Below the pieces are notes generated by a model. The model was not told the origin of the DNA. It saw only the letters and a program-made list of their open reading frames with translations, and made no database searches. Position numbers and translations under genes: made by a program. Positions 2,285 through 60,564 of a stretch of DNA of 64,000 nucleotides are shown here, piece after piece. Position 1 is the first letter of the stretch, and every line of letters starts with the position of its first letter. The DNA is taken from contig NW_026570271.1 in the NCBI RefSeq assembly GCF_019649055.1, positions 124,001 to 188,000 on the forward strand, in the 5' to 3' direction. The DNA comes from Paramacrobiotus metropolitanus. Its lineage: Eukaryota; Tardigrada; Eutardigrada; Parachela; Macrobiotidae.

Positions 2285-5200
2285 TCAATGGATAGCTTGA
2301 ACAGAATGCACAATACTGGTTTCCAGTGTACTTTGCGATTGATACTTAACAATATGCTTGCCCATCGTTTCCGGTTTCCGGGATTTGAACTTACATCCTG
2401 TACAGTATAAAAAATCCCCCCTGGCGAAAAGCTTCGCGTGCTCATTGTCTGCCAAATGTAACAGGAATGCGTCTGCTTCCTCACAGAATAACCGACAAAT
2501 GTGACACTCATATCTTACACTAACTCTGCCCGTGGTCGAATTTTCTGGCGGAAGTAACGTCTCGGAGGCGGTTCCCATGCACGAACCTAGCGAAGCACTG
2601 GAATTTGGAAATACTGGGATTTCGCCGGTGGAAAGTCGTCTTGTATCGGTTTTCATATCGACACCGACTTCCGGAGTGCGCTCTGATGAATCCTCCGGCG
2701 GTTGGTTGCCGTTACTTGACATCCACTCAGGTCGCGACGGCTCTGCAGTATTTGGAAAGATCGGGGCCGAAATATTTGGATCTGCTACTGTATCTGACCG
2801 CTGCTGCCTCGCATCAGCAACATATTTGTCTCCGAACTGCCGGATTGTGACTGCCGGTGTATCGCTTGTCTCCTGCGCGTCAACTGCAATCGAAGGAGGA
2901 GCCTAGGTAAGAAAGCAATAAATAGATAAAATTTATTATCACAATTTCATATGGCTTAACCCTTTGGCGCCCTGTGGTGTAGGCGACGTCAGTTGGTGCG
3001 AGTTAGACGCACCAACTGCAGTCGAAGGTGGAGCCTAGGTAAGAAGGCATTTTCAAAATAAAGGTAAAATTTATGCTCACTGTTTTATATGGCTTAAGAA
3101 ATGTGCAGCTCATGATTTCGCCATAGCAGGTGCTTTTCTTGGCAGATCTATAGTTTGCAAAATGAAGAAACGTTTTCCCGTCAAAATGGGTAAGCAATAC
3201 ATCGCTTTTGAGCGTTGATGTAACTAGTATCCTCACTTTCCTGTGTAACAGCATCAATCAATCTTAGAAACAAATAAAGAATTAATTTGGCACACTGAGT
3301 TATCTTACATTTAAATTGCTGAGCTGGCCAGTTGGCATTGTTTTGTCGTGGTTCTTGTCCAGCCCTTTGTCAACTCTACTGTCATCTTGAAAGGATGCGG
3401 CGTCGGTCAAGAAAATAACATCGAGATGCTTTTTCACCGCATCATACGAACATCCCTGTTGACGTAGTTTTAGGACGATGGATTGCATTTCCTGATACTG
3501 GCCGCATTCCTTGTTTGTAACCTTCTCCTGTGCTTGAATGATCGGGTCTGGCGAAATCGTGGGCGTATCAGCAGTTAGTGTCATGGGCGGCTCACAGTCC
3601 ATTTTGTCATGTTCGTGTTCTGGACTGCTTTCCCTGTTTCGGCTGTTTGCACCCTTCTCTCGCGCTTCAGTATTAGGGTTTGACAAAGTCGAAGTCGCTT
3701 TAACCATTACTAATAGGACGATCGGCGGGTCACCGTTAATTTGATTATGTTGATGTTCAGCACTGATATTACACCCAGCGTTAGTGTTAGCTGGTGACAA
3801 CGGCCGCTGGCTCTCCATTACATCCGTGATGTTTTGGTCGAGTGCAGACTGTGCAGCAGCGGTGTGCTGCCCGCTCATAGTACCCACTGAACAGCTCTTT
3901 GTGGGGGTCAGGCGCCGCTGAAGTCCGGAACTAAGAGTAACTAAGTCCGGGGTAACAGATACACCCTGGTAGCACGGCCGGGATGCCGAATATTCCAAGG
4001 TCATCGAAATATCGCGGCTGGTTGTCTGCCTCTCGGCTTCACCCTGTTGCAGCGCATCCTCCTTTTCGACAGCTACAACAAGCAGAGATGAAATCATGAC
4101 GTAGCAGTTAGGACTCTGGAAGGCTGTGTCCATAAAACATTTTTTCGCAACAGGTTGACTGTGCTAAAAGATGAATAAAGATTCTCTTCGATTAACAAGA
4201 CTTAGCAATAGAGCAGTCAGCAGACATCATCATGTACTGTAGTACGTATATATGGATAATCAGACATTCGACCCGTATTGCCCGGCTGTTAATAATCATA
4301 GTAAATCCATAAGCGTGATTTCCGATATCAGTTAACGACTCAAGTTACATATTAAAACAGTTAGCGATTTAAGCAATTAGTCTGCCCGTTGTAAACGTTA
4401 ACATAAGAATTTTTAACGGGGAAAATATCAACGGCATACAATCATTACTGCACTTCTGTAGAAAGAATTCGATCTCCATGCAGTTCATTGTCAGTGTTAT
4501 GAGACTATTTAGCTAATCCACATACCAGACTGGTTGCTCTCGATATCCCGGTCCACCAGTTCTTGCGAGACGTGTTCCGAAACACCTTCAACTTCTGCTT
4601 TTTCATTCTGATCGGCAGATACAGGAATATTAGATGTGGATGCTTCGTCGCGATCACACGTAAGGGTGTAATAACAATCAGAACAACAGTCTAGAAGGTG
4701 TGTAGTTGTACTGCCTAATTGGTCACACTGTCCTGTCTTCCGACGAGACAATCTACGGCACACACTTGCGCTGTTATTGCCGCCATCCTCCTTATGTGGC
4801 GGTGTTTGAAGAACCCGCTCTTCTTCCGGATCGACCAGTCTAAAAGCGGGCTCTACATCATCGTCTCTTGCACTACTTAACGGACGCTCATCCGGTGTGT
4901 TTCCTCCTTCGCCGGCGTTTATCGCTGCTTGCATGCGCGTCTTGCCCATCTTATGCTGTTCCGATATCGTATCTTCCGACAGTGCTTCTGCAGACATTTT
5001 ATGGGCAATTTTTCGCGCCCGTCGGTAAGTTTTTCTAGGGCGGTCCCTTAACTTTTTCCCATTCTGCAGCAGCAACCTTCTTAAAGAATTTCGGGATACG
5101 CCGAACTTTTTAGAGATGTACGACCCACTATGACCTTCTTCAAAGCAGTTAAGTATCCCTTCTATCTGTTTCTGACTGACAGGAGGTTTATCTGGTGCAT

Positions 5201-5653
5201 TGAAACAAAATCCGGCGTAACGAATTACAGCGGTTGCGGCATCAACCGTTACGTTAACCTCACGGGCAATATCCGCTCTTGAGTACCCACGATGGAACAA
5301 CTGCTTGATTGCTTTCTTTTGTTCTTCAGTAAGGCCGATCATTCGTCGCATTAGGTTTACGGTCGACCTGCCAACCTTAAACTGCCGTGCAGTTTGCGCT
5401 TCGCTGCATTTTCCATCTTGCGCTCGCTTTATAATCTCTTCGTTTTTCTCCTCGGTTAATTGGGGTCGAAAGAATACTTCATTTTTCCGGACGGTATAAT
5501 TTACTGTGTGAAAACTGATGCCCAGACGTTCCGCGATTTGCAAATTCGTGCTGCCAGCCTTGCGCAGTTCGCAGATCGATCGGCTTTTTTCTTCTTCCAT
5601 TTCTTTGTTGTTTGACGAGTTTGTATCAATCTGTGTCGATTCCAATGGTTGCC
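2285..5653 (-). CDS. Gene A: four-HTH, zinc-knuckle putative DNA-binding protein
   Basis: Exons (minus): 5653-4526, 4072-3309, 2902-2285. Borders are good GT-AG sites, and the phases (1, then 0) join into one open frame. Starting at the TTG codon at 5645, the reading is 833 codons; the first ATG is 15 codons further in, and a conserved acceptor just upstream of 5653 suggests that an earlier exon may supply the true start. Counting from 5645, HTH units lie at about residues 21-55, 64-102, 104-145 and 156-195, followed by a basic RDRPRK-type patch, then an acidic linker with a CCxxC cluster. Exon 2 ends in a helical module (LKLRQQGCSYDAVKKHL). Exon 3 ends with a CxxC-x12-H-x5-H finger and a second CxxC-x12-H lacking its last His. 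HTH units suggest sequence-specific DNA binding in the nucleus; this is inferred. No transposase catalytic domain is seen. Family not recognised. Confidence 0.75.
2881..3094. repeat. Duplicated exon-3 acceptor region in intron 2 of gene A
   Basis: About 80 bases covering the start of exon 3 and its acceptor (2881-2961) recur at 3012-3094, including a second CCTAG acceptor. Reading from the upstream copy hits a stop after about 30 codons, so it looks like a decoy or dead copy. Gene B lacks it. A hairpin (GTTGGTGCG, 7-base loop, CGCACCAAC) lies at 2992-3016, at the junction. Confidence 0.7.
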
Positions 5654-7049
5654 CTGCTACAACAAATGTTTTTATAGCAGAGGCCTGAAAACACTTTTCG
5701 GTTTACACTCAGTCTATGTATTTTCAATCCGTGGGAGCCAAAAGGCATACAGAATAGCTTTGGTAACGCTTGTAGTCACCAAATGACCTGAAATTCAGCT
5801 TTCCGGATAGGCCCTTCGGGTAACCATTCCAGCCAAAAGTCACCATTTTGGTGGTAGGGGTAGGAGGACACGGCAAAACTGTCCGGTGGGACAAAAGGGA
5901 CACTGTTGCGAGTCTGTGACTACAGGCGCACCCGAACAACGGGAATGTAACATTGCGCCGCACTCAAATATGACGCCCGACTTTTGGCTGGACGCTGGGA
6001 GGTTTCGGTTTAGGTGTGAGACGTTTTCTCTTTGCGATATATTGCCATTACCCAACTGCCCGCGGACATTTGGCCAAAAAGGAATTCAAAGCGCTTGTGC
6101 GACTTGGCTTCAAGATGTTTTTTAATATTTTCAAATTTTTTGTTACTTTGTTTTTGTTCTTTTATTTTTCTTTGGCTTCTAAGATTTCTCCATTTTTTTT
6201 AGATTTCGTATAAATTTTTTCAGTTTCTTGTGTTTTTTATGTTTTGTTTTCTAATGGTTTCGTATGGTTTCTTATGCTGTGTGCCGCACAGGCACCCAGC
6301 AGTGGGCCGTACATTCTCGCCGCTGCCGTGCACCGATGAATTTCAAGCCCACTTGCATTGGCCCGTGCCACTGCTGCCGAATTGACAAATTTTTAAAATT
6401 TCGTTATTGATAAGCAAAAATAATTTTTATCAGCGAATATGCTAACAAATTTTATTCAGCAAATGCGTAATTTAAAACAAATTTAGTTAAATACGCTTGC
6501 GAGCTGAGCACTTATAGAAACGTCTTGCGTAAGCAGCTTCCAGTGATAAACGTTGAAAGTTGCAAAAAGAAATTTTCGATGATATATAACTCCTTTGGGT
6601 GGGATGCGCACCGAGAACCCGGAAACCCAAAAGATGGCGAACTAACCTGCTGTAGAAATTGCTTTGAATTTTTACAAGTTATTAAGCTGGCTCAGTTTAT
6701 GTCATAAAGATTTATTCAGTAGTCACAATCAAACATACTAAGAATCTGGTCGATTTTACAAAAAAACTGCAGTTCCAAGACAAGTTTCTGAGGCATTACG
6801 TCTCAAACATAAATTTTTATGGCTTCATCGCGGTAGTCTATTATCGGTTACCTTGAAACAGAAGGATACTGTTCCAAAAACAGCGAAACTTCAGTGAAAA
6901 TTACCTTAAAAAGTCAAGTTTCTTCGAACCCCAAATTTTTTTACAATACACATGTCGTATTTTTCTGCATCGCGTTACTGTATACAATACGTTTTTCATG
7001 TTACGTAATTTATTACGATTACATAAGCTGGGCGCACTGATTACCTTAC

Positions 7050-7454
7050 CGTTCTTGGTTTCCAGTTCACCGAAGGCAAGAGCCTCAATCTCGGTGAAAT
7101 CGATGTCCTCCACAACTTGTGCTTCCGGAGTCGCTGCTTCCTCATTCTCGTTGGGCATTGAAGGGCCGTCGGTTTGATTCCCGCCTTGAAACTCTAAAGG
7201 GCTGTGACCACTTCCAGAATTTACTGCACATCCGTGCCAGGATTTCGGGCAACGACGCAGGATGGCCTTTAGCTGTGGCACCTGCTGAACTTGCGGTTTA
7301 TCATGATGCACTTCATTGACAAAGCGTATCTCCCACATGTCGGCTCCTGGTTGGCTTCCAACAGGATCTTCTGCACCACCCAGGTACTGGCTCTGGTTCA
7401 CTTCTTAGTTGGCGCGTACGTGTGACTCTCGTTCCGCAGTTTCAACACAATCTC
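7050..7454 (-). pseudogene. Candidate upstream exon of gene A, frame disturbed
   Basis: Seen: an acceptor TTATCTGCAG before 7454 and a donor AACG|GTAAGG after 7050, with a matching segment upstream of gene B (21811-22220). The first residues read IVLKLRNESHTYA, resembling the exon-2 module of the same family (IVLKLRQQGCSYDA). The last part reads FTEIEALAFGELETKNG and ends in phase 1, which fits the phase-1 acceptor at 5653. However, the frame of the first part differs from that of the last part, and in copy B the change of frame falls elsewhere. Either the exon is decaying in both copies or its borders are more complex than I can see. Confidence 0.45.
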
Positions 7455-9800
7455 CTGCAGATAAGACTGGAATATTTAAAGTTGCAAATTTGAACATCAA
7501 ATTAAAATCAGTTCAAAATCTGGCACTAAAGTTATATAAAGGTCACAAAGGTCAAAGCATTTTCTTCACAAATTATTAGTTTCCCTTTCTAAACGGTCTG
7601 ATTATAGAAACATGCAAATTCTGTAATCGCAAATGTTTTTTCTGCGGTACTCGGTAGTGATTCGGACATTCCACTAGATCTACCAAAAACGGAAAATAGT
7701 AACAGCATTCCCCGAATACAGTGACTTTCTAATAAAAAAAACAGCTCTCAGATTTCTAACACTATGGCAACCGGTTCTGGATCGCAACGCACTCCATCCA
7801 TGCAGTCTTGTTTCAGAAAACTGAAAGAACTTACTATACCAGTAGCCAGTAGGGACTTAGAAGTGAATGCGCAACGGCCGTCTCCGTCTTCACTCTCGCT
7901 TTCAGCAAGCGCTGCTGTGCTACTGCTAACCATAGTTCCACAATTTCTTGTACCTACTGAAAGATATTCTCAAGGTTCTTTCTGATATTTTAATAGGTCA
8001 TAATGAATACAGACTTACAGAGACCCATATTCTGGGTGCTAGAAATCGAAGAGAAAAGAAATCTGCTGAGAAAACCTGACAATACCGCGCATCAGTTACT
8101 ATCGCAGCAGTTTTCTCTGACTTCCTTTTTCTTGCCGACATGTATTCCACTAAAATCTTATGAAAACATAAGAAAATAATTATAAGAAAGCCGAAGAGCC
8201 TGAGCAAATTAACATGATATATGGAGAATACGCGAGGCATACTGTGAGGTTACTCTAGGATACGCTAGTGAAAAGGAATGTCCACTTTAACGATATTCGC
8301 AATAAACAAAGTATATTATACTTGCATTCGCACCACCTTCGAAGGCCCACAGTATCCTCTACGTATCCTTCATGTATTCTGCTTTGGGTTTATCAGTAAC
8401 CGCAATATCCCAGTGTACTTTAACGTATTATTAATGTATCCGTCGAGCATCTTTCAAGTTTCGCTTTGGTTCCTTTAACTTCCTTAGTAGGATACATTCG
8501 GGATGTATAATGGGCACTGCAGAGGAACGTTGAGATACGGCAGTGATTAAAAAAAAGTTTTAAGTTTAAAGAATACATATATGAAGGATACAGATACACA
8601 GAGAATACTGTCAGATACGGTGGGATATTGTGGATACAAATCAAAATAAATGCCCGGAAATATTTATGGACTAACCTGGCTACAGGCGAATTTTTTGACT
8701 CACCATGTCAGGGGTGCAAGCGAGGCGTAGCTGATACACAGCCTTACAGAAAGCGAGAATGCTCTTATTACAGCGTCTTAGCACCGAAACACAGCGGGGG
8801 AATGCGCTGTGTTTAACGGCAACCGTTCCACGTTGTGAGGGTTTAAAATCATCACAGTCAATATTATACATAAAAACAAAATGAAAAGCATTTAAACTAT
8901 AAATGCTGTTTAGTTTTGCTTTATAATATTATTTGCGATGTTAAAAAATTGTGTCTCATAATTCAGTAAATTTCGTGAGACTAAACAAAAGTGAGAATGC
9001 TTCAGCTCTGTGCATGCACATACATTCATTCAGATTAATAATCAGTGTATGAGGCACAAAATTTTAAGAAACTGACTGCACAGAACGTACACGTGCGCCT
9101 CCCTGAATAACAGGATAACCCCGGATAATTACTCAGATAAATTAGACGAGCAGAACAGATAGGTACCCGTAGTGCACTAATATGCTTTGTATTGCCAGGT
9201 GACCGTATGGCGTCACCGTTGCGCCTACGTACCTCATTCAAAGTCACCGGGGTCCGGTACTCTTCCATAACAAACAAACATGATTTTTTTGCGTTTTTAA
9301 TAAGTTAGACCTTCGCTGAGCAGTGAGCACCGATCGGTCATCTATCTGTACAATATTAAGGTGCAATTTTCATTTCCTAAAATGCCGTTTCAAAAATGGA
9401 CCAGAAGGTACACGCTCCAACCCTACGTGCACATGCCGATATTTGCGCAGGCCGCGCTCCGGAAAGCTCGACTTCCCTTTCGGTACTTGGTTATCTGTTT
9501 GGTTATCACTTATCTGTTCGATTATCTGTTTGATTATCAGTTTATCTGTTTGATTATCACCCCCATTCGTCCATCTGTCTGAATGGCCCATTCAATTATT
9601 TAAAAAATCCAAGAAAGCGCACAGTGGCAACAGTTTCCTAACTACCCACCGTATGGTCGCTCGGTTGAGCACCTACTACATGTACAGAAATATTACTTGA
9701 ATGGGTAACGGTCGTTCGTTTGGTCACTCATGAATATAATTCCAAAGTGCACAATTCGATTTCCTCTCCGTTTTTATTCTTTACCTGAATAAGCAGGTCG
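7455..9800. other. Non-coding segment with no clear counterpart beside gene B
   Basis: Between the upstream exon of A and the point where alignment to the other duplicate resumes (about 9795), I see no convincing gene. A short minus-strand frame at 7933-7818 (Met, acidic Ser/Glu-rich) ends at a GTAAGT and could be a first exon, but nothing joins to it. Loosely repeated segments rich in GGATAC/GTATCC occur at about 8240-8640, partly in inverted orientation. Confidence 0.4.
9480..9565. repeat. Short minisatellite of TTATCTGTTTGA-type units
   Basis: About six degenerate 12-14-base units of the form (GA/GG)TTATC(T/A)GTTT in tandem. Confidence 0.7.
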
Positions 9801-12800
9801 CACCCTTTACAGAGTTCTTGACATTTTTAAAAAAGGTCAAACCGTTTTCCTTGCGCAATTGCGACGATTAAAAACATTGACGAAACATTTAAGCTACTCT
9901 GTACGCGACGCCACACGAGCCACTGTCCTACACTAGGACAGCTACAGCCATCGCCATGCGGTTGCGACGTCGCTGTGTAAGTGATACATGTGTAGAATAA
10001 AAGTGTCATCCAGAGCTTCAAAAATCATCTTTACGCTAATCACGAAATCGAGGAATCAGTCGAATGAAAATATATAAATCTCATTAGATGGCGAAGACGC
10101 ACATATGTAACATATTGCAGTACTAAAGTTATAATGGTGTAGTGCAATGGCTCGCGTGGCGTGGCTGAAGTGTTTTGTCGCTGTTTTTGTAACGACGCAA
10201 TTGCACGAAAATAGGTCAACCTTCTTTGAAAAGGGTGCAAATCTACTTAATCAGGGAAAGAAGAAAACCGGAAGGAAATCGATTTGTGGGAATTACTTTC
10301 AGGAGAGAGTCCGAGCGACCAACTGAACGCCCGGCGCCCGTTCGCTTACTGTGTGAGTGTGCTTAACCAAGCGATCATATGCGTAGTATGATTTTATTAG
10401 GAATTTTGTTTCCTTTGAAGTTGTTCAAACGTACTGCAAAAATAAATATGTAAACCGAAAATTTAGATCTCAGAATCCCAGATACTTCCGGTTGGTGAAC
10501 AAATGACAGCCATCTGGTGTGGCAGCGTGATTTGAATCGGCAAACTTTCTGCGAAGTTCAAAGTGAAGTCCTCATTTCTTTCGCAAAATATTTTTTCATT
10601 CTTTCTTTCACTTTTTCAAAAATCATTCTGCTAACTCAAAATTCTTGTTCAATTTAAGTCCACAATATTAAAGGAGCGGAAAATGCCTGATGGTTAGTTC
10701 GCATATGTTTATGCGCCCTCCGAGCCAGCAGCACCGTTTAGCACGGTTCACAGAATTTTAAAACGGGATGTAATCGCAAATTAGAATGCTTTTGGTTTTT
10801 TTTTGTCTGTTTTGAGGAAACGCCTCACTTTACTTTTTGCAAATGTGCAGAGAAGACGTTAATTGTAAGAGTTGACATTTCACGATAATCCCGTGAACCT
10901 TATAGTGCGAACACTGGAAAACCAACGTTGTGGTGTTCAACGGCGACCCTGCATCAGGCACATAAAATGTGTACTTACTCAATAGTTCATACTCATAACG
11001 ACCATTAAATGTGAAACCTACACTCTCTTATTACGGCTATTTTTAGGGGAGGCAGATAAATTAATTTATCACGCTGGCTTATCAAAGTAAAAAGCTATAG
11101 CCGTAACAAGCTAGTCTCGTGAGTGCACGAGTTTTTCGTTGAGTAATTCACTTATGTTAAGGTATAGCTGATTTTTTTCCGCGCAGTTTGCGTAAGGTCA
11201 GCTATTAATTACGATAATTATTTTAATAGATTGACAATAAGGAGATGCAATCATACGTATAGTAAACAAATTTAATGGAGATTATTTTTGTCACTAGTTA
11301 TTTTATGACTTCTCTTTTTGTCATTAGCGATGCCTTGATATATTTTACAGCACACGCGTACATCTACTTTGGGAGAACCACCCCCTGGCGACGGAATTCC
11401 AGCTTTGATTCTAGGTTTAATTAATGAATCTACAGAGTACGTACACAAATCACTAAGGAGTTAACAAGTGCAGTGAATTTTTACGAGTGATGTCATAAAC
11501 GCGCCGTAATATCATAATTCATAAACGCACCGTAATACCATGTGGCGCAGGATGGAATCATTTTATCTGCCGAATATTCAACAACAATTTGGAAACTGAG
11601 ACAATAATCACATTGCGCACACAAACAAATAGTCTTAGAAAACGTTTCGACATTATCACTTACAATTGAAAATTAATTGTTGGGTGAATATTCCAATAGA
11701 CGTTTGGCCGTTACAGCGTTCCCTGTTATCAGGTGTTTTGAACAATTGCGGAAATGAGAACGAAACTTTCAGTGTCACCTATCTAAAATCGACCGCTTCG
11801 CAAGTAAATCGGATTTAAATCACTGCGAATTTAGATTCCGATGGTTGGATATGGGTCGGATTGGGAAATTAAAAAACTTAACATTCGGGTTTTTTGAATA
11901 TTTGATCCGATGGCATAGACCGGGCAAGTAACCATACTCTTGTTCTACGGCGGAATAACCCAAGTAGACTCCGCATTCCGCCACTCAGCCATAAGGTTGG
12001 CTTCCAGCTTCCTTGGTCTATCTCAATGCTACGGGAGAATGGCGTGACCAGATTAATCACGGCAAAAGCGACAGCAGCGCCACGGCATTTCGAATGGCAG
12101 CTGCAAATTCCTACGCAGTAGCCACAGGATAGGTAGAACCATACAGGGAATAAACAAAGCAAAGCGGCGTATGTTTATTCCCTCTACGGTAGTTATGCTT
12201 CGCAATTTGAATTGTACATGTGCAGTACTGCCAATAACGAAACTGTATATTTTGAAAACTACAGTTATTATTATGATTTATCAATTATCAATTTATTAAT
12301 TTATTATTTACCAGTTATCAATTTATCAATTATCAATTTATTAGTTTTCAATTTGATTCGCATCATGTAATGCATTAAGTATCAAAGTTTCGATACGATG
12401 CTGCAAGAGAAAGGATTTTCTGATCGAGCGGTTAAGTTACAATGCGAGCAAGAAAGGAAGCTACGGGTTTAGGGTGTGTATTTGCTTTACTAATCTCGTT
12501 TATGTATTAAAATACTCTATGGTAGTTTAATGTCACAAACACCGGACTGCGATTGATGCGGAAGCATGTAAGTAAACAAATGAAATACTTCGGTTTTTTG
12601 TTAAATTTGAGTGTTAACGCTACGCCGCAGTTATGGAGTTATCATTATTATTTCACTGAAATAATTGCGCGTTATGGAGAGAGCATATTTTCTGTGCATC
12701 AAATTGCTTGTACTTATAAAACCACTTTAAGCCAAAGTTGCGCCATCTTCGGATTCATCTTCGTACAGACTACAGAGTAGTTGTAATAGCGTGTAAAAAA

Positions 12801-13310
12801 CTTTGCATTTTATTGTTTCATCTGTTAGTGAAAATACTAACGATTCTGGTTAAAGAACACTATTTCCGCAGCATTATTATCTCGAAACATATCCTGAATA
12901 TATACTATATAGAGCTGTTTTAAAAATAATATTTTCAGTAACTAACAGCAAGCTTAATGTTTAACTACACTTTGTAAAGTTAATACTTTTTATGATGTCA
13001 TTTGTTGTCTGTCTAATTTGAGACACAGTAACACAGATATCAACATTAATATCTTGCTGTGACCGCATTGCAACAAAACAAACTAGTACTACTGTAGTAG
13101 TAGCAGCAGAATCCCTATGCGTCCGAATGGTTTCTGCCCGGAAATCAGTGCTGCTGTATGGTGATGCCTTTATATAAGCGTTTATTTACAAAGCACGGAT
13201 CATAACATCCATGTTGTGCTTTTCAGAGTCTGAGGCAGTATTAAAGCAGACTGGACATGTTTAAGTAACTGACCCGCCGCTTTTGTCTGTCTGCTTAGCT
13301 AAAATTCTTT
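9800..13310. other. Intergenic duplicated DNA
   Basis: Matches 22770-22859 plus 25438-28800 on the other side of a transposon insertion. Open frames here are short and not conserved with the duplicate. An AT-rich run of ATCAATTT-type units lies at 12275-12356. Confidence 0.5.
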
Positions 13311-17303: not shown

Positions 17304-20300
17304 TCAACAGATAGCTTGAATAGAATGCGTATTACCGGTTTGCGCCATACTTTGCGATTGGTACTTAACAATATGTTTTCCCATCGTTTCCGGTTTCCGA
17401 GTTTTGAACTTACATCCCGTACAATATAAAAACCTCCCTCTGGCGGAAAGCTTTGCGTGCTCATTGTCTGCCAGATGTAACAGGAATGCGTCCTCTTCCT
17501 CACAGGATAAGCGACAAATGTGACACTGATAACTTTCACCGCAGACTCTGCTTGTGGTCGCATTTCCTGGCTGAACTAACGTCTCAGAGGCCGTTTCCAT
17601 GCACGGGTCTAGCGAAGTACTGGAATTTGGAAATAGTGGGGTTTCGCTAGAGGAAAGTCGTATTGGATCGGTTTCCATATCAACACCGACTTCCTGAGTA
17701 TGCTCTGATGAATGCTCCGGTGGTTGGTGGCCGTTACTGGAGGACTCAGTTCGAGGCGGTTCTCCAAGATATGGAACGATAGGGGCCGCAGTATTTGGAT
17801 CTGCGACTGTATCGGACCGCTGCTTCCCCGCATCAGCAACGTTTTCGTCTCCGAACCGCCGGATTGTGACTGCCGGTGTATCGCTTGTCTCCTGCGCATC
17901 AACTGCAATCGAAGGAGGAGCCTAGGTAAGAAAGCAAAGAACACATAAAATTTATGATCACAATTTCATGTGGCTTAACCCTTTGGCGCCCAGTGGTGTA
18001 GGCGACGTCATTCCCATTTCCCACTAAAATATTGTTCTCAGTGTATCTTCAGTTGTTCACGAACCACGGCTGCTTGAAGTTCGCTAATTTCGAACTGTTA
18101 GAGGTCTTTCTTGTTACCTAATAGTCGACCAATCAATTGTTCGGGGATAATTCAACAAGATACAACTGATGATACCTTATTCAAAAATGTATAACCTGGG
18201 CTATAAAAGCAAAACACCAGATGACCACAGTCCGTGGATGCCAATACTAACGAACTTTCGGCAAGTTTATTTACATTAGATGCTAATCAGCGGTAGTTAC
18301 TAAAATATAAAACATGGCGGTTGCCATTATTCAGCAATTCTCTTCGAATCTGGACGATCGTAGCGACCACTGCAGCTGGGCCAGTCCACGGCAACTTCCT
18401 ATGCCGCCTGTTACAATAGTAACGGCCGCACCCATCAGTATTGCAAAACAGTTTCCGTTGATATTACCTAATTATCGAGTCATAAGGTTCATTCAAGTAC
18501 TGCAAAATGTTTCCCAAGGGTTTTTTTATGACCAGTGGTCAGCTAGACCCCTATTCTTGATATGCTATCCGTTGGACATTTGGTTTTTGTTAATTGCGGT
18601 TCGCATATTTGCAGGAGAATTCAGTATCTTTGATTGCTTTTAGTTACTGCCTATGCTTAATCGTATAATCTGATACGCTGGTCACCAAGGGTGAGCGTAC
18701 TCACCGGATTCCACCTATGGTCAGTATCGCCAAACAAAAAAGTTTCTTCCATAACTGAAATTTTTTCATGGGAAATCTCGGTTTTCAAGCAGAAACTCGC
18801 ACTCTTTTGAGCACCCAGCGTGGGTTAAAAGTGTTAAGAAATGTGCAGCTTATAACACCACCGAAGCAGGTGCTTTTCTTGGCCCACCTACAATTTGGTA
18901 ATTAAAGAAACGTTTTCCGCCAAATTTGGTAAGCGAAACATCGCTTTTGAGTGTTAGTCTAACTAATTTCCTGTGTAACAGTATATATCAACCCTAGGAA
19001 CAAACAAAAAAGTAACGTGGCACTCTGCGTTATCTTACATTTACATCGCTGAGCTGACCAGTTGGCAAGGCTTTTTCGGTGTTCTTCCCCAGTCCTTCTA
19101 TAACTATACGGTCATCTTGTAAGGATACGGCGTCCGGCAAGAAACAAACATCGAGATGCTTCTTCATCGCATCATACGAGCATCCCTGTTGACGCAGTTT
19201 AAGGAAGACCGACTGCATTTCTCGATATGGGCTGCTTTCCCTGTCTGCAACCTTCTCCTCCGCTTGAATGCTCAGGTCTAGCAAAGTCGTAGGTGTAGCA
19301 ACAGTTAGTGCCACGGGTGGCTCACAGTCCATTTTGTCATGTTCGTGTTCTGGACTGCCTTCCCTGTTCCGGTTGTTAGCAACCTTCTCCTGCGCTTTAA
19401 TATTAGAATTTGACAAAGTTGTGGGAGCGTTGACCAAAAGTATGAAGACGGCTGGCGGTTCACCGTCAATTTGGTTATGTTGATTTGCAATATTGATACT
19501 ATTCGCAGCATTGACAGGTAACAGCCGCCGCTGGCTCTTCCTCACAATCGTGCTGGGGTGGTTGAGTGCAACAGCGGTGTGCTGTTCGCTCATGGTATCC
19601 ACTGAAGTGACAGAACAGGTCTCTGTGGGGGTCAGGCGACGCTGACGTTCGGAACGAAGAGTAAATAAATCTGGGCCAGATACACCGTGGTAGCACCGCC
19701 GGGATGCCGAATGTTCCAGGGGCACCGAAATACGACCGCTGGCTGTGTGCTTCTCGGCTTCATCCTGCTGCAGGGCATCTTCCTTCTCGACAGCTGCAAC
19801 AAGCAGATAAAAAGTAATCACGTTGCAGTTAGGAGTCAGGCAACCTGTCTGCATAAAACATTTTTTCGCAACATGTTGGCTATGCCAAAAGATGCATCTA
19901 TGTGCAATAGACTGTATTCTGTTAACCAGTAAGAAAGCAGTATCACATGCAATATATAGAAGTAGGGATAATGATCCGATAATCAAACATTCGACCCGTA
20001 TTCTCCAGCTGTTAGTAATTGCAGTAAATCTATAAGCGTGATTCCCAGTAGTTAACGAATCAAGTTGCATACAGTATTACAAAAGTAGCGAATTAAGCAA
20101 TCAGTCTGCCATCTGAAAACGTTAACATAAGAATTTTTAACGGGAAGAATGTCAACGGTATACAATCGTTTCTGCACTTTTGCATCAAGAATTCGATCAT
20201 TTTGTACAGTTCATTGTGTGCTACGTATAAGACAATGTAGCTAATCCACTTACCAGACTGGGTGCTCTCGATATCCCAGTCCATCAGTACTTGCGAAACG

Positions 20301-21810: not shown

Positions 21811-22220
21811 CGTTCTGTGTTTCCAGTTCGCCGAAAGCAATAGCCTCGATATCGGTGAAATCGATGGCCTCTATCGGTGCTGCTCCCCGAGTCGTTTCTT
21901 CTTCATTCTCGCTGGGTGCTGAGAGGCCGCCGGCTGTGTGATTCTCGTGTTGAAACTCTAAAGCGCTGTGGCCACTTCCGAAACTCACGGAAGAACCGTA
22001 CCGGGATTTCGGGCCACGACGTAGGATGGACGTTAGTCTTGGAGTGTGACGCATGCTGAAGCTGGGGTTCATCGTCATTCATGCCGTTGACAACCCGCAC
22101 CTCGGCTTCCTGACTGGTGTCCTTCAAGATCTTCTCCTCCACTACCCAGGTACCGGCTTTGGTCCGCTTCCTAATTGTTGCACACGTGCAATCCTCGTTC
22201 CACAGTTTCAGCGCAGTCTC
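21811..22220 (-). pseudogene. Candidate upstream exon of gene B, frame disturbed
   Basis: Counterpart of 7050-7454. An acceptor ATTGGCAG precedes 22220 and a donor AACG|GTAGGG follows 21811, ending in phase 1 as the downstream exon needs. The first part reads ETALKLWNEDCTCA and continues WVVEEKILKDTSQEAEV; the second part (ILRRGPKS, SGSGHSALEF-like, FTDIEAIAFGELETQNG) lies in another frame. The shared ending FGELET(K/Q)NG in A and B suggests past constraint. Confidence 0.45.
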
Positions 22221-23420: not shown

Positions 23421-23564
23421 ACTGAGATGATTTAACTAAGCATCAGTTCGACGCCGTGACGGGTCGACATCGTGTCTGTTCGATGAAGTGACGGTCGACG
23501 AATTTACGTCGACGAAATGGCGGGTCACCATTTTTAAATCCTCTTTTTGTAGCTTCCTACTTTA

Positions 23565-42714: not shown

Positions 42715-43914
42715 AGTGTACTCTAATTATTTTTACTGCCCGAGAGGCGCATAGAATCGTTTCGGTACAAATATGTAGAAGTGTGCAATTTTGACTTTTA
42801 AGTATAGTATGTATACGAATAAATTCCTTCAATTTGTCGTTCATTCTTGGGGAAACTTGCCGCTTCTCTGCTTATAAGGGAAACTCCGGGACATTATGGA
42901 ATGGAAGATTTACAAGCGCCCCGTGTAACAGCGTAATGTGCTTTATATTGGAAAGTTTTGAAAATGTTCAAAAATCTGGACTATTGTTGTCTAACAAAAG
43001 CAAATTTATCTGAAAGGCGGCCGCTCGAGTTGGCTGCTGTAACAATGCATTTCGTACCGAAGAAAACAGCCAAAAACAATCATTTTGGCTAGGTATGAGT
43101 GGCCTTCGCCTTTGGATAACTCTCGCGCTCGTCCAAATAGGCCCATTTAATCTATCAAAATTTTATTAAACGGCTCGTGACAGTTAAGTTCTTATTATTT
43201 TGTCTGAATTCATTTCAGAATTTATTTGCTTTTAAATCGTTCAACCATTTTGGTAAAACAATATCAACTGAACCCTCCAAAACTGCACATTTCAACCGTT
43301 TCCGGTGGGAGAACAAATGCAAGCCTCCCGGTTGTGGCAGTCTGATTCCGCTTTTCTGTGACATAATATAAATGATTTACATACTATGAATGAAATGGAA
43401 GAATACTGCTCAAAAATGTCTTAAATGGTTGTTAGGCCGCTCTGCATTAACTAGGGCGAACTCATTAACTTGGCCGGCGTGGCGAGCAAGAAATTTTCGT
43501 GTAGATAACCGATACACCGCTACAGTCTCCTTTTAAAGAAAGCCCGCTTTTATGGTGGTTGCTGGTGGTCCATAATTGGTTCACAATATGTCGCAAGACC
43601 GAAAAATTTCGTTCTCGAATATTGTTCAAAATTTGTGGAACCGAGGATATAGTTCCACTGCGGACATCCATGAACAGCTTAAAAAAATTAATGTGCTAGG
43701 TATTCACTTAGCGTTGATATGTAATTCGAGTATGAGTAATTTAACGGTAGTTTCTTCCCCGTATAATCCCTTTTGTGACAGACGGTTATTGTATCATAAT
43801 TATTTGAAGATCTACTGTGCCGTATACCTGATCAAATTTTTATCCACAAAAATTAAAATAATAAAGCAACAGGAGCGCTACAAACAATAACAGCATCGAC
43901 AAATGTGTTAAGTT
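42715..43914. other. No supported gene
   Basis: Contains CATTTCGTACCGAAGAAAA near 43050, related to the ends of the element at 14357. A 68-codon minus frame (43671-43465) and a 104-codon plus frame (43576-43890) overlap each other, and neither has further support. Confidence 0.4.
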
Positions 43915-46900
43915 ATTGTTCCCTTCCAACTGCAGAACAAATCAGACTCCATAAACTAAACTTTTTGATATTATTGACGAAGGATGGAATGTAATAGATA
44001 ATACATACGAGAGTATGTGGAGCAACCGCTGGAGCGGAGGACAGTATGTCGAACGAAATCGGCAAATTTGTCGAACCCCAACCCCACACCAGGATTTTGC
44101 TTTTCGTCTGACAATGTATTACCCAGAAAACGCAGTTTAGGAATGCAGACGTGTGACGTAAGCCCTTTCTGTGCCTAAAGCAAGCGTACTGCTCAGTATA
44201 GACAAGGCTTTTCATACCACAATTAACTTTTTATTTCGTATCGGAACAAGAACATAGGAGACAGCTGAAGACGGGTCAACAGCTGATATTATAATTTACG
44301 GCCGGTAGAAAATGCGCTGGCCATTACGGTCTGAACAGTCACAAAATTAATGTTACAATCGCTGTCCAGCCACTCTGCCCATTAAATTGGCTTTCCAGGG
44401 ATGGCAGCCACCAAGCGCCAACTCATAAAAGTTTTATTTGTTATGATTCCACTCTTCCATCGAATGATTGCTTGAGTGATGCAAACTTTAACGCGAGTAA
44501 AAATCGCGTTAAAAGTACGAGTACGCTTCTGTTCGTTGATGTTTAGTTATTGTGCAAGAACCATTCCGGGTTGACATCATTCGCGTACAGGTCGGACCCT
44601 TGAACTGAATTGATTTTCAAAGGACTTTAGTTGTGTTATTGTGGCAAGAATTGTGCATAATAATATTATCGGAAAATTTGTCAAGCACTTCAGCCACATA
44701 ACCAGAGAATAATATTGCGAATGTCCGTTATTTTTATTTACAAAATTGCCGATGAAAACAACAACTGCTTGCTGGCTGTTTTTCTACTAAAAGAAAACTG
44801 TACAGCGCACCCGCACTGGCAGGCACTGTCTCGCGACTTGTGACCCTGTGCGGCGAGCACTGCGTAACCGATAAATCAACCGTTTTAATAATATTTCCTC
44901 AACCATTTATTTCTTCGTTATTTAGTTATTTAACCACGTTGTACCGATCGCCGATCGGTAAGTCCGCGAATATCTGACGTATAACGATAACCTTTAATTT
45001 ACTAAGTAAGTTAAAAACTATCAGAAAATTAGAAAACTTACCATCGGTGGTCCTTTCTTCGTGGTTACGAGCATACGTGTGATCAAAACCGGGATAAAAT
45101 GCAAGTCTGTGCTCAGCGCCGAGGTCATTATATTGCACCATAGTGTCCGCGTTGCTCGGCGGACGCTTATCCGGCGCGTTCGCATCTTGGTCGACCAGAT
45201 CCCCTTTTTTTGGGGTGCTATCGGGAAATACAAGTGAGGCTTGTATGCGGGCGTCAGACAGTCGTGGGCATCCTTGGCGGGTTATCCCCTTCTTTAGCAA
45301 TAATAAACTAAGGAACCTCTCCGATAGGTTGTACTTATTTCGGATATTCTGCACACTGTAGCCCAATCTGAAGTAGTTCAGTATTTGTTCTTCTCGCTCC
45401 GGACTGATAACAGTGTTATCCACTGCGGTAAAACTTCGTCCGGCGTACCCAAGTGCAGCGTTAGCGCCGTCGTATGCTACGTTGACCTCGCGAATAATCT
45501 CTGTCATTGGGTAGCCAAGATCGAACAGTTCTATGATTTTTGTTCTTTGATCGTTTGTAACGCCGGCCGTTAGTAGTCCGTGTCTCACGGTTGTTACGCT
45601 AGTGTTCAGCTGCTTGGCGATTTGTTCCGGCCTGTACTCTCCTTTACGCGCCAGTTCCATGATCTCGTTTCCGTGTTTTCGGGGCAGCATCATTATCCGA
45701 GTATATTCTTCCTAAGCAAGAAAGTTTCGCAGTGCAGACAAAGTGACGCCCACGCGTTCGGCGATCTGCTGCCCGTATAGCCATAAATGCGTAGTTCGCG
45801 AATTAGCCGTTCTTTTTCCTCATCCATTTCGTTGTTTGACATCTTTTGCAGCAATCAGTATGAGTATCGCTGCGAATGGTTGAGCTGTTGTAAAATCGCC
45901 ATTAACAAATCAAAAATGTGGAATTACAACAATATTGCGGAAATAACTGTTACGACTGGAAATGTAATGCCAATATGCACGTTTACCAATGCCGCATTTA
46001 TTACAGTATGATGCATTATTTTATATTGGTCGCTTGCGTAATGATAACGGTACTATAACCCTGTCGTGTTTACAAAACTTGCTCCAGGTCAGCATTCGCC
46101 GGTTGTGCTGCGCTAACTTTAACGAAAACTAAGTGCTGAAACAAACCCTATTCGCAACCAAAAACGAATTTTATGATATCCGTTATGATATCTGATATTT
46201 ATGATATCTTTTATGATATCCTCTGAACTCTTAATTGGAGCAATCAAATTATTATGTAAGAGGTCAAATTTGCTGTAAATTTAAAGTAGTTATTATGAAT
46301 TAATTGGCTCTTTGCTGTCGCAATTTTCTCCGACTTTGGTCGTTAAAAAATTTTGCTGTTCGGAAGGTTGTTGCCGTTGTTTTTTCTAGCAAAGGCGCAT
46401 TGGATCACACTCATCACAGATAAGTTTTGTACGAAACTTTGTAAGCTTTTTACGTAGATTGATTTTGAGACCAGCTAGAGTTATTCTTTCACAATCAGGC
46501 CAACCCACCGTCGGGGCGTAATAGTAACGGCGCAGCTCTACGCCTGCGCTAGAATACATCCAGGATATTACTCCTGCCGGCAGCAGGGATTTTGGGGTTC
46601 AAAATAGAAAGGGCTCTATGCGATAGGCGTACAGATTACCAACATCAGGTAAACAATTCAATGAACTCTTTCCACATTTAACGGCTAGATTTATGGTCAA
46701 ATTTTCTCCCGATGCCTCCTCGGATGCTGCAGCACGAAAAATGACTTGGCGGTATTCTGTTCCCGAAGAAGAGTCTTAAAAATCGAAGAAAAATACTGCT
46801 CCCGAATCTGTTCCCTTAAGACGACAAGGTTTTCAGCTTGTCTGCGCGTAATGCCTAAATTTAGGTCCATACTCAGCGTAGTACAGATCAAACATGAGAG

Positions 46901-49130
46901 CAAACTCATTTATTGGCAAGTATTGAATACGAAATGTGAATAAGACATAAATCAGTACATAAATTCACAGCATATCCATAAATTCACAGCATATCCAGAA
47001 TTACAAAATTATTAACTACTTAGAAGTTTAACATTCGCGACGTAAACACTTACCAGCAATATTTCTTGTGCTTAGGAGTACAATCCCTGTCGTAACATGA
47101 CGGCCGATATGCAATAATTTCAAGATTTAAACGGATTAATCAGTTTTTCATCCACAGAAAGTCCCGGCGTGATAAATTACCAATATATTACTAAAATTAG
47201 CACTTATGCTATTAGAAGAGGGCAAATAAATGGTTAACTTGTAGCGTTCAAAATAATATTTGTGCACCAGACTGTGCAAATCAACTTTTTCGAAAGATTA
47301 GTCGATGCAGATTAGCCTGATTAAATTATACAACCCTCCAGGAAAAGTGTATTTGAAGGCCATAGTGGGTTCGTTCCCGGACGATACCCATAAGATCGGA
47401 ATTTTGACTTTATCTGAGAAAGCCTGATAAAAGAAAATGCTACTGAACTCTTAGCAAGCGCAACCCTTTGCAGCAGCAGGGCAAAACACGGCGCGGTAGG
47501 CTGATCGCTATCTTACTGCCTAATTTGAAAAGATTTCCTCCACTAGACCGAACAGGCTCACAACAGAGACGGGTCAACACCGGACCTCTTTCGTACGGCT
47601 GAACGGGCTAGTTAACCGGCCGAGTAAATGGAGTGCACAGTCTACTCGATTTAAGCTACCGAGGAATAATCAACGACTTTGCCCGTGTTTGTGCAGCTTT
47701 GTTATAATAGAATCCGCTTCAAATTACGTACCAGCCGAGGGATGACAGCAAGCAAACGCTAACCGGCGAAAATTTAAAATTTTGATAATCTGAAATGAGC
47801 TTTTGCTGCTATCGGTTGATTACACTTATAAGTTATAACTAACTGATGATATCTTGGTGCCGCAAATAAATCTTTACTCGGGTATTCAAATGATCTGTTA
47901 TTCTGATATTATTTTGCCTTTGAGCTAGCTGAGCGAGAATTAAGTTAACTGACACCGTTGTATACGTGTACTGTAGACTTTGATAACCCAATAAAATGTA
48001 AACTATAGTATGCCCTACTCCAAGATCGGTACGTTGGATACTTCAGTGTGTCATAAAGGCAGCTCGCGAATTTTTGAATTTTTTTAGACAACAGCGCATT
48101 CGCAACAATTTTTTATAATTTATTATAAATTCTGCAATAAATTATTTGCAGAGTAAGCCGCCCTTTTGTTACGAAAATCAGAAAAAGCAGATACGACTGT
48201 GAAGCATTTGAAAGTTTGCAAACGTATTACACTGTCACACAAAGCGGTTGTAATTTTTTCTAACACCGGAAGTTTTAGATTTTTCTTCATATTAAAGTTT
48301 CAGCTTGAAGTTTTCAGTGAAATATAAATCGCGTTATATAGGAAAAGTATTTCCACAAAAGGATAGGATGCATAAATCCCACGTGTGTTACCAGCCTTTG
48401 CTTGAGCCGCCTGTGTCTTTAGCATTCAAGTCGGCCGTTTAAAAAAATGTTGTTTCAATTGCCTTTGCCTGTTTATTAACGCTTATTGGTCAAATTATCG
48501 TCTACACATTGACGTTTCCAGACTTCGCAAGATTTTTGCTACAACGTCGCACATCGTTGATCAACGCAAGAAAAACCACGGAATCTAGGTCAGAAGAACA
48601 CTCGAAAACGATGTTTCCGGCGAACGTCTGTTAACGTTGACAGTGCTGACGTCGTCGTCGGCAACAACTACTTCTGCCGTTTTCATTTTTTCTCAGATTA
48701 GATCTGAAAGCGATTATATCAGCTTATTTCCAGCTGCTTTGGTGCTTTTGGAATATTACAAGGTTGATAATTGTGGGTCAATCTGACGGAAATTTGCTTA
48801 AAGTTTTTTTGTCGCCCCTATAAAATCTGTGTATTTTTAATAAAACACAGTTTTGCTACATAATCTATGTAATCAATCTAGTAAAACATAAGAAGAAAAA
48901 CATGTAATGTCACCTCGGTTTATTATATAACAAGTGTAATAAAACTAAGAACACAAACGAAAAGGCAAAAAAAGATAAAAAAACCTAAGAAAACACAAGA
49001 AAAACAAAAATATAAGGTAAACATAAAAAGACAATAAGATCTGTTTCGAATTTTTCGTTCCAGTAGGTACTTCGTCAGAGCGCTGGTAATCCTTCTTCAA
49101 GGCCGACGTTACCAGAGAATACGTGCAAAA
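43915..49130. repeat. Segmental duplication 2, left copy (contains E)
   Basis: Bases 43915-44880 match 50175-51300 plus 52320-52450 (for example GCTTTTCGTC and TATTACCCAGAA(A/G)ACGCAGTTTA). Bases 44925-49130 match 59610-63990 (pseudogene E against F's core exon, TACCGGACGATACCCA-like segments, and GAGGCCGACGTTACCAGAG near 49098 and 63941). Same orientation throughout. Confidence 0.85.
45042..45884 (-). pseudogene. Pseudogene E: isolated HTH core exon
   Basis: The conserved acceptor (CAACAG|CTCAACC) and a consensus donor (GATG|GTAAGT) bound 843 bp, consistent with a phase 1-1 core exon. HTH units 2-4 are open (from MMLPRKHGNEIMELARKGEY through IREVNVAYDGANAALGYAG to YNLSERFLSLLLLKKG). Near its 5' end the frame changes after MDEEKERLIRELRIYG and a TAG follows the first unit. 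The exon ends in a DHTYARNHEE motif shared with F, and related to DHTFMRDHD in C. None of the downstream exons found in D or F is present in the 1.1 kb that follows, so E is a remnant. Confidence 0.65.
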
Positions 49131-57200: not shown

Positions 57201-57224
57201 GTAATTCAAGCTGTAATAATTATT

Positions 57225-57534: not shown

Positions 57535-58066
57535 TAATTGCAGCAGACACCCTATGGTGATGCATGGGCTTGCATGAATGTAGATCGTTTGTTAGGCTTC
57601 GCCGTTTGCTTTGGTTTCTACCATGTGACTATCAGTGTCTTATGTGAAAGGAACTGTGCGAAATTGCAGTGATGTGCGATGTCGACAGAAATATATCGTC
57701 CGTGTTGTCGCACCCTTGACTGCAGGAAAAAGCGCGTGATCGTTTGAAAATGCCCAAATCTCTCAAAAAAAACACAGAAAAAAGGCTCAAAAACGCCAGC
57801 TTCTTTTCGTTTTCGTATAAAATTCGTCGGTGCGACAACAAGCGCCTGGATTGCGCTCAGTTTCGGCTAGGAGTGCACCATTTTCCCGTTTTCTTCCTCC
57901 GGGAGGGCGCCCACGCCACCTCGCAGCGCAATACTGATGTCTATTGTCTATCGGTGTGGACAGTGCGATTGCCTAGCGAAAATTACAGTTCTGCCGGAGT
58001 CAGTAGCAATATGCGTCAAGAAACAAATACCGTATGAAGTCTACAGCAACACAAAAGCGATATTAC
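57535..58066. other. No gene seen
   Basis: Sequence between the MITE and the last recognised exon of F; the open frames on both strands overlap and lack support. Confidence 0.4.
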
Positions 58067-60564
58067 CTGTGAAACAAAACATCCCATATATATGGACAGC
58101 GCTGACGCTTGTCCGCCCAGCCTGGCTGTGACGTGGCAGGACTCAGTTCGGGAGTATCACACGGCGGAAGTCCTGGGCCGGACACAAGGATACTGTGGGC
58201 CATCTCCGTTGTTAGCCCCATTGCCTTAGCCAAATCGGCCAAGCGATAATTTTCACCAAAGAAATCATCATAGAGATTCCGTTCCGGCTCATAATGTCTG
58301 CTGGCCTCTACAAAGTAATTTTGTCTGATACTGAAAATTGCGCAGCATACAGAAGATTTGAGAAGTGTAAAATGCGAATACCAGCGTATGTACAATCAGT
58401 CATGTTAGTGAAAACTGGAATGTAGTTTGTACTAGTAAGTACTAATATGTTCTGCAATAACCAGTAAGCCGAATTTATCCACATGGCAGTGAGTGGTTTT
58501 AGAACATTCAAGCTTTATTCAAAATTTTAGAACACTGAAGTATATAGAATTTAGGTACCGTTTCCTTTCACCATACATGATCGATTCGATATATCTGTAC
58601 TGTATTTTCGTACAGAGATTGCTTATGCGAGTAACATAACGCAAAAACCGAGTTTCAGAATGAATAAGCCGGTTTCAATCATGTGACCGAAGCGGCGCCG
58701 CATGTGCCATTAAAGTTCTGTACAGCTGGGGTGTTGGCGGTCCGGCGGAAGCGGAGCAATGTCCTTTTTATATGTCAGCAGTTTTTATTTAAAAACGTGC
58801 ATTACCATACAAAAACCTCCGCACCAATATTAATTTATTTTATCAGTAATATAAGAACAGGTGGATAGTGCACCTACCAGAACGGTGTATTCCCAAATTC
58901 TGGTCCATGACAGAGTCGCACTGCGAGATGGCAATCGAAGCGTTTGTAGCTGCACCTCCTTCGGTGTTACTTGCAGTTAAATTAACATTTTCTGTTAAAT
59001 TTTGGTCGTAGCCATTGGTGGAAGAATGATCAGAACCGGAGCGAGAGGAATACGTGCGTGAACTGCCTGGACCTCTCCTTCGCATGGACTTTAAGCGAGC
59101 CGACCGGCGGCAGCCGGCACTGCTGTCATCCTTCTTTTCTTGCGATGACTCAGCCACCTGATTTTCCTCCACACTGACAGGCCTGAGCATGGAGAAAAGG
59201 GCAGGCTCCTCTTTACATTGCATCATGTCTTCTTTCTCTTCCTCACTAACGGGACGATGGTCCAGCGCGGCGAAACGGCAACCAGCGTGACGAATCACAG
59301 CGTCCACGGCGTTACCTGGTATGTTAACCTTGCGCATAATCTTTGTTCGTGAGTACCCACGACAGAACAGCTGAAATACGGTTATTCTTTGTTTGTCAGT
59401 AAGGTCGATCATCCGCTGCAACAGCTTCACAGTCGTTTGTTTAACATTGTACTGCTTCGCGATTTGGGCTATACTGTAATTTCTTTGGCTTGCTGGATGT
59501 TCGATCGATTTTTTCTGCCGTTTAGTCCACGTTGCTGGTCGTCGGTGGATTTTTCCTACTAAGAGAAAATTTTATCTCAACGATTTTGTAACTTTTTATT
59601 TACCATTCGTTCAATAACCATGTTGTGCCGGTCGGTATGTCCGCAAATAACTGACGTATTACAATAACCTTTCATTTTTTAAGTAGGTTAGAAACTATCA
59701 GACAAATAGAAAAATTACCATCGGTGGATCTTTCTTCGTGCTTACTTGCATACGTGTGATCAAAACCAGGATGAAACGCAAGTCTATGCTCAGCGCCAAG
59801 GTCACTATGTTGCACTTCACTGTCCGCGTTGCTCGGCGGACGCTCATCCAGCGCGTTCGCTTCTTGGTCGGCCAGCTTCACTTTTTGTGAGGCCCTTTCG
59901 CGTAATACAATCTGTGCTTGTATGCAAGGGTCATACAGTCGTGAGCATCCTTGGCGGGTTATCCCATTCTTCAGCAATAATAAACTAAGGAACCTTTCCG
60001 ATAGATTATACTTATTTTGGATATTCCGCAGACCGTAGCCCAATCTGAAGCAGTTCATTATGTTTTTCTCTCGCTCCGGACTGATAGCAGTGTAATCCAC
60101 TGCGGTAAAACTTCGTCCGGCGTACTCAAGTGCAGCGTTAGCGGCATCGACTGCTACGTTAACCTCGCGAATAATCTCTGTCATTGGGTAGCCGAGATCG
60201 AACAGTTCTATGATTTTTGTTCTTTGTTCGTTTGTAACGCCGGCCATTAGTAGTGCGTGTCTCACGGTTGTTACGCTAATGCTGAGCTGCTTGGCGATTT
60301 GTTCTGGCCTCTACTCTCGTTAGCGCGCCAGTTCCATGATCTCGTTTTCGTGTTTTTGGGGTAGCATCATTATCCGAGCATATTCTTCCTTAGCAAGAAA
60401 GTTTTGCAGTGCATACAGTACAAACTGACGCCCACGCGTTCCGCTGTCTGCTTCCGTGTGTAACCATGACTGCATAGCCCGCGAATTAGCCGTTCTTTTT
60501 CCTCATCCATTTCGTTGTTTGACAACTTTAGCAATCAGTACAAGTATCGCTGCAAATGGTTGTC
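58067..60564 (-). pseudogene. Gene F: paralogue with HTH core, extra HTH exon and YDDFFG exon
   Basis: Exons (minus): 60564-59719 (core), 59558-58878, 58330-58067. The core is bounded by the conserved acceptor (AACAG|GACAACC) and donor GATG|GTAATT; units 3 and 4 are open (IREVNVAVDAANAALEYAG to YNLSERFLSLLLLKNG) but the 5' third is out of frame. The second exon is 681 bp, open, phase 1-1 and carries two HTH-like units (IAQIAKQYNVKQTTV and LFCRGYSRTKIMRKVNIP), then an acidic and basic tail, ending at TCTG|GTAGGT. The third exon has the LYDDFFG module and ends RCPYIWDVLFHR followed by TAA, as in D, but its acceptor phase is off by one base. Probably decaying; the second exon may still be functional. 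Confidence 0.6.

Follow-up and report, generated by a model that had tools for sequence, protein, structure and literature searches.

A cluster of predicted multi-helix-turn-helix genes, expanded by segmental duplication, in the tardigrade Paramacrobiotus metropolitanus

Introduction

Drosophila Pipsqueak contains four tandem Psq helix-turn-helix (HTH) motifs. The archaeal protein Cbp1, a CRISPR repeat-binding protein of the Sulfolobales, is described as carrying three duplicated HTH domains, aligned along the CRISPR repeat in one direction (PMC10883916). In animals, ZHX proteins are described as co-repressors with two C2H2 fingers and five homeodomains (PMC2893186), and thus show this kind of arrangement at work in animal transcription. 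Tandem HTH domains are also outlined for the N-terminal part of the CENP-B-like domesticated transposases of fission yeast (PMC10085805). Here we analyze a 64,000-nucleotide stretch of the tardigrade Paramacrobiotus metropolitanus (assembly GCF_019649055.1, contig NW_026570271.1, positions 124,001 to 188,000 of the forward strand; hereafter the window), which holds a cluster of loci with a common exon encoding predicted tandem HTH units. A preliminary description of this DNA had presented four tandem HTH units as lacking any described family, a statement that is not supported, as tandem arrays are described for Cbp1 and ZHX. The reading that we favour, and consider reasonably probable, is that of a tandemly duplicated, lineage-restricted family of predicted nuclear DNA-binding proteins.

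Results

Six loci share a core exon

Comparing the window with itself by tblastn revealed seven homologous copies of a core exon in six loci, A to F (Table 1), in line with the six paralogous loci of the preliminary description. Exon 2 has homologues in four of the six loci (A, B, C and D), and the terminal exon in three (A, B and C). Seven open frames of 438, 397, 363, 348, 287, 261 and 259 codons all exceed the longest frame (245 codons) of 100 near dinucleotide-preserving shuffles, so that they are not due to chance.

Judged by their alignments, the loci are segmental duplicates. Segment A (1727..13310) is a copy of 16742-28791 (B), forming mostly collinear blastn blocks of 69-81% identity, with the block 9652-9899 inverted in B. 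Segment E (43903..49130) is a copy of 50171-52448 and 59627-63973 (F), in collinear blastn blocks of 70-80% identity; the two parts of segment F are split by 7 kb containing the core copy F1 and a Harbinger element. The latter comprises Harbinger/PIF-type transposase pieces at 54332-55430 (+), with a DDE_Tnp_4 match (7.5e-13) at 54963-55430. Adjacent open reading frames on the opposite strand, at 55437-56432 (-), could be a partner gene, a role without Pfam support.

Predicted gene models

Genes A and B were each modelled with four exons. The model of gene A begins at a candidate ATG (7338) and ends with a stop at 2285, giving 932 amino acids; that of gene B spans 22078 to 17304 (920 amino acids). 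Neither has an internal stop. The core, exon 2 and terminal exon form an open frame with a single terminal stop, adding exon 0 keeps the frames open, and A and B correspond in the splice positions of their three main exons. The earlier claims of fully open frames over three exons and of acceptor and donor contexts common to the paralogues are borne out. The uniform exon phases of the preliminary description did not hold, as the phases are 1,1,0 in A and B and 1,1,1,2,1 in D, which leaves "phase-1 exons" only mostly right. Gene D comprises six exons with 870 codons (the gene having at least 870), zero internal stops, GT-AG borders at 5/5 introns and exactly one open frame per exon. From these predicted spliced frames, A, B and D are probably genes. 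In gene A, the acceptor region of the terminal exon (2881-2959) is duplicated at 3013-3097 in the preceding intron (81% over 85 columns), and this duplicate is a possible alternative mini-exon.

Genes A and B evolve as coding sequence

The gaps between A and B were divisible by three in 7/7 cases within the core, exon 2 and terminal exon, compared with 15/55 in non-coding sequence (introns and flanks; Fisher p 3.5e-4); exon 0, with 2/4 such gaps, was excluded from both counts. The ratio of nonsynonymous to synonymous substitution (dN/dS), calculated as a simple pairwise Nei-Gojobori estimate, was 0.61 over 827 codons (bootstrap 0.49-0.79). In both the gap and dN/dS comparisons, the limits of the core and exon 2 took in one or two intronic bases. 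Simulated unconstrained change over 831 codons produced a mean of about 8 or 11 stops at a divergence of 0.08 or 0.12 (500 runs each; minimum 1 or 4, respectively), while none was observed. Based on the in-frame gaps and the dN/dS value, A and B are coding but weakly constrained and fast-evolving.

Identity between A and B amounts to 80-86% in the core, exon 2 and terminal exon, 76% in exon 0 and 77-80% in introns and flanks, with one upstream block at 72%. Along the core, the proportion of synonymous differences (pS) declines from 0.3-0.5 at the start to 0.06 in the tail; it is about 0.10 at 4524-5012 / 20252-20731 versus 0.40 in the adjoining HTH part. This low silent divergence in the core tail is possibly a patch of gene conversion.

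The core exon encodes a predicted array of HTH units

Profile searches were run exon by exon on single exons, covering all four exons of A and B, the 6/6 exons of D, the cores of C, E, F1 and F2, for C also its terminal exon and some of exon 2, and module Y of F. Among the cores, Pfam returned HTH_7 in 7/7 (best 1e-17), HTH_23 in 6/7 and CENP-B_N in 4/7, the core of gene A matching HTH_7 at 1.9e-16 and HTH_23 at 1.6e-12; only general HTH families were among these matches. Neither a DDE, nuclease nor recombinase catalytic domain was found in the exons searched. Throughout the profile libraries, no match to a transposase or other named family reached past the HTH units, and none spanned the whole protein, in line with the preliminary description.

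Structure prediction, which had been suggested for the HTH array, was performed with AlphaFold2 on the seven aligned cores. The model contains 12 helices in four triplets, with a mean predicted local distance difference test score (pLDDT) of 76.8 and a predicted template modelling score (pTM) of 0.43; in it the HTH units, about 39 residues each, are well formed, and their mutual arrangement is not fixed. Mean unit identity was 0.47 for the same position across genes (52 pairs) versus 0.16 for other positions within a gene (26 pairs). By this measure the duplications came after the four-unit array had formed, and the array has not been homogenised. The preliminary description had given up to four units per core; four are not present everywhere, D having three (the third cut short) and F1 two. 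These counts, from a unit hidden Markov model (HMM), are in-sample.

The same description had considered an arms race with repeats. In the A/B comparison, nonsynonymous change per codon was higher in the recognition helix than in the rest of the unit by 0.11, an excess that is not significant (permutation p 0.17) and lends the arms race no support. The proportion of nonsynonymous differences in the recognition helix reaches pS in A/B and B/C and stays below it in A/C and E/F.

Exon 2 and terminal exon

Exon 2 contains a LKLRQQGCSYDA module that may be a degenerate HTH. Aligned as an HTH by hhalign, it scored 16.35 versus a best value of 11.66 in 40 column shuffles, with a probability of 21%. 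Module X in exon 3 of gene D reached 13.99 versus 12.17 in 40 column shuffles, and module Y, which has no Pfam match, gave 9.76, within its control range. The unit HMM matched neither the exon 2 module nor X nor Y at E up to 10. Taken together, the score above shuffles, the low probability and the missing unit-HMM match make a fifth unit possible.

The terminal exon carries two CxxC-x12-H motifs. In the three-copy alignment, a further histidine follows the first motif after five residues, while the second is without a nearby last histidine. Pfam C2H2 models match 3/3 copies, all below cut-off, and the three-copy profile matches the finger pair of ZHX1 (2ghf) at E 6.6e-4. With this spacing and profile match, the predicted pair resembles C2H2-type fingers better than the zinc knuckles named in the preliminary description.

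Damaged copies

Copies C, E and F2 are decaying. The core of locus C holds a frameshift and its exon 2 one stop, and in E and F2 the first HTH units are interrupted by frameshifts and stops. At 32594-33550, upstream of the better set, locus C seemingly contains a second, decayed set of exon 2 and terminal exon, which rests on weak tblastn matches at 32679 and 33212.

Discussion

Comparison with known systems

The best named-family match was the Cbp1 profile NF040595 of NCBIfam (core of A: E 2.4e-18, 66.3 bits versus a cut-off of 140), which matches 5/7 cores at 1e-3, below its curated cut-off. Cbp1 resembles the predicted proteins in joining HTH units, produced by domain duplication, in one chain, and the CRISPR repeat binding protein 2lvs was the top Foldseek neighbour of the core in the PDB (E 0.065). 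It differs in being archaeal, in having three units rather than four and, as described, in its lack of zinc fingers. The likeness is one of working mode, not of membership.

Like the predicted tardigrade proteins with their candidate C2H2-like pair, ZHX1-3 are animal proteins that join two C2H2 fingers to several helical DNA-binding units in a row. As far as their description goes, ZHX proteins place the fingers first, followed by five homeodomains, whereas here HTHs of about 39 residues come first and the C2H2-like pair last. The classical homeodomain model (PF00046) was not among the 21-family core tally or the Pfam matches listed, where only the "homeodomain-like" HTH_23 and HTH_32 appeared.

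The bipartite HTHs of Tc1/mariner transposases and Pax proteins are alike in unit fold and tandem pairing, with Mos1, Tc3 and Pax6 among the Foldseek neighbours. The present array differs by its four units, by the absence of a DDE domain and by an HTH_SB match below cut-off, which in A reached 23 bits in the open reading frame (E 7.1e-5) and 24.6 bits in the core versus a curated 43. Sleeping Beauty transposase appeared among the PDB sequence matches at 0.028, its PAI subdomain at 0.071. The CENP-B-like Cbp1 family of fission yeast, which is not the archaeal Cbp1, has comparable N-terminal tandem HTHs according to its description, and CENP-B_N was found in the cores as given above; it keeps a degenerate DDE domain, while none was found here. 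As to Pipsqueak, a viral HTH psq-type protein stood at rank 9 of the viral fold search, and HTH_psq was absent from the full Pfam lists of D, E, F1 and F2, from the best 25 matches of A, B and C, and from the 21-family tally.

The best natural sequence match in the PDB was a bacterial deoxyribonucleoside regulator (E 0.0066), covering one unit only. The "CAP repeat" protein 8VD6, with five tandem HTH-like repeats, gave a summed E of 4.2e-15, each repeat alone having E >0.1. According to its description it is a de novo designed protein (PMC12339374); it was therefore rejected as a relative, the match having no evolutionary meaning. Among publications on families with tandem or multiple HTHs, no fitting one appeared at the level of titles, abstract openings and passages.

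Proposed mode of action and competing explanations

We postulate that the core provides four consecutive three-helix HTH units, separated by short linkers and, within a single chain, lined up on the DNA, so that a monomer would read an extended, non-palindromic site; by analogy to the three HTHs of Cbp1 along its repeat, the four-unit chain would thus read a long asymmetric site. Further contacts, to DNA or to protein, would come from the C2H2-like pair at the C-terminus. The genes would be transcribed, and their products would be located in the nucleus, bind DNA and act as transcription or chromatin factors; the family would be restricted to its lineage.

Several observations weigh against such a family of functional DNA-binding proteins. 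Foldseek found no fold match of the core in the PDB at E 0.001, searches by DNA pattern and tblastn found no relatives among viral and prokaryote contigs or, for the core only, plasmids, and AlphaFold2 gave no usable model of the terminal exon (pLDDT 31.7). Constraint on A and B is weak, with a dN/dS of 0.96 (0.47-2.12) in the core tail. The candidate ATGs of A and B lie at non-homologous positions, and a wider alignment of exon 0, where the 73 codons common to both genes have a dN/dS of 0.61, contains frame-breaking gaps of 7 and 8 nt, which makes its start uncertain. In gene D, the phases are compatible at 5/5 junctions, but its splice sites were selected visually, with knowledge of the frame, and the phase fit is therefore no independent test. 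Furthermore, frameshifts or stops affect half of the loci (C, E and F), and the E/F2 dN/dS is 0.80 (0.51-1.30), as expected for damaged copies.

An old gene expansion reduced to pseudogenes throughout, in which A, B and D had stayed open by chance, would account for the damage and the high dN/dS values. We nevertheless judge this improbable: A and B combine zero internal stops with exclusively in-frame gaps over the three main exons, the bootstrap interval of their combined dN/dS excludes 1, and D is coherent over six exons. An origin from transposons is unlikely, yet has more in its favour. The genes would then descend from a Tc1/mariner-like, pogo-like or other element, either as its DNA-binding gene or as the DNA-binding part of its transposase, recently domesticated or still mobile and spread locally together with that element. 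The HTH_SB, Sleeping Beauty and CENP-B_N matches, the Mos1, Tc3 and Pax6 neighbours and the tandem HTHs of the fission-yeast proteins fit this account, and transposon-derived HTH factors with lineage-specific expansion are described as common in animals (PMC10027918). Opposed to it are the lack of a catalytic domain in the exons searched, the sole DDE match being that of the separate Harbinger element at 54.3-55.4k, and the nature of the copies, which are segmental duplicates of 5-12 kb, flanks and introns included. Likewise, self-comparison revealed no long inverted repeats flanking A or B among matches >60 bits, where short ones could be missed; separate listings of inverted pairs covered 25 of 79 and 25 of 47 pairs. 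Transposase-like HTHs could be a remote source of the units. A nuclease or recombinase accessory family, in which HTH arrays aim a catalytic domain as in phage homing endonucleases, is scarcely credible. A phage endonuclease was the top viral fold match (E 3e-6) among 14 at E <=0.001, and HNH and homing endonuclease families of PHROG each matched 4/7 cores. Set against this are low template modelling scores for the top match (0.27 and 0.19), short PHROG alignments that are HTH-sized where displayed, and the lack of a catalytic domain in the exons searched.

If transcribed, a lineage-restricted family of DNA-binding proteins would show that an animal genome can build and locally expand a DNA-binding repertoire from three-helix HTHs instead of zinc fingers, and the array with its position-specific units predicts a long composite binding site. 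If derived from transposons, the cluster would be a further, unusually elaborate case of a known process. It seems quite unlikely to us that it constitutes the animal HTH-array counterpart of the clustered zinc-finger families, with modular multi-HTH and C2H2 proteins, tandem and exon duplication and changing recognition helices, perhaps directed against repeats.

Features of the window

Table 1 Coordinates of exons and exon homologues in the six loci, with core positions from tblastn.
Feature	Position	Strand	Basis
Gene A exon 0, candidate first coding exon, donor GTAAGG	7050..7338	-	open in core frame from ATG 7338
Gene A core, four HTH units (5597-5481, 5456-5340, 5330-5214, 5177-5061)	4526..5653	-	Pfam, AlphaFold2; tblastn 5.7-4.5k
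Gene A exon 2 with LKLRQQGCSYDA module	3309..4072	-	open; homologous in B, C, D
Gene A terminal exon, C2H2-like finger pair and stop	2285..2902	-	alignment, profile match
Gene B exon 0, candidate, donor GTAGGG	21811..22078	-	open spliced frame
Gene B core, four HTH units	20254..21375	-	Pfam, unit search, spliced frame; tblastn 21.4-20.2k
Gene B exon 2	19039..19793	-	tblastn, spliced frame
Gene B terminal exon, C2H2-like pair	17304..17921	-	alignment, spliced frame
Locus C core, four HTH units, frameshift near 31844	31212..32224	+	tblastn frame 3 to frame 2 at 31844; tblastn 31.2-32.2k
Locus C exon 2 homologue, one in-frame stop	34225..34485	+	tblastn
Locus C terminal exon, C2H2-like pair	34756..35370	+	tblastn, alignment
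Gene D core, HTH units 1-2 and shortened third	41135..42100	-	tblastn, spliced frame; tblastn 42.1-41.1k
Gene D exon 2	40560..40937	-	open spliced frame
Gene D exon 3, possible further HTH (module X)	38891..39199	-	spliced frame, hhalign
Gene D exon 4 (module Y), paralogue in locus F at 58320-58066	37783..38053	-	spliced frame, tblastn
Gene D exon 5	36903..37075	-	spliced frame
Gene D last exon, A/B exon 2 homologue, stop at end	36114..36630	-	tblastn, spliced frame
Locus E core, unit 1 broken (frameshift and stop), units 2-4 open	44998..45840	-	tblastn, unit search; tblastn 45.8-44.9k
Locus F core copy F2, frameshift and stop in units 1-2	59675..60522	-	tblastn, unit search; tblastn 60.5-59.7k
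Locus F second core copy F1, two HTH units	58843..59571	-	tblastn, unit search; tblastn 59.6-58.8k
Locus F homologue of D exon 4 (module Y)	58066..58341	-	tblastn, blastn

The window has a eukaryotic look, with its predicted spliced genes and Harbinger-type transposase; ARAGORN detected no tRNA in it, and Rfam gave nothing at gathering score. Ten other open reading frames were compared with Pfam, eight of them without a match at 0.1 and two with weak ones (0.041 and 0.09). A 118-codon open frame at 283-639 (+), with no Pfam match at E 1, is possibly the last exon of a gene beyond the window. A segment at 22856-23196 forms nested inverted arms with 25441-25296 and 24788-24607, the paired blocks being 83-96% alike; together with a 212-nt hairpin at 24791-25300, these look like a foldback or inverted-repeat element. 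A 95-bp tandem repeat occupies 1113-1389 (2.9 copies, 97% alike), and short direct and inverted repeats are dense at 14352-15300, around CTGTAGACA-like units.

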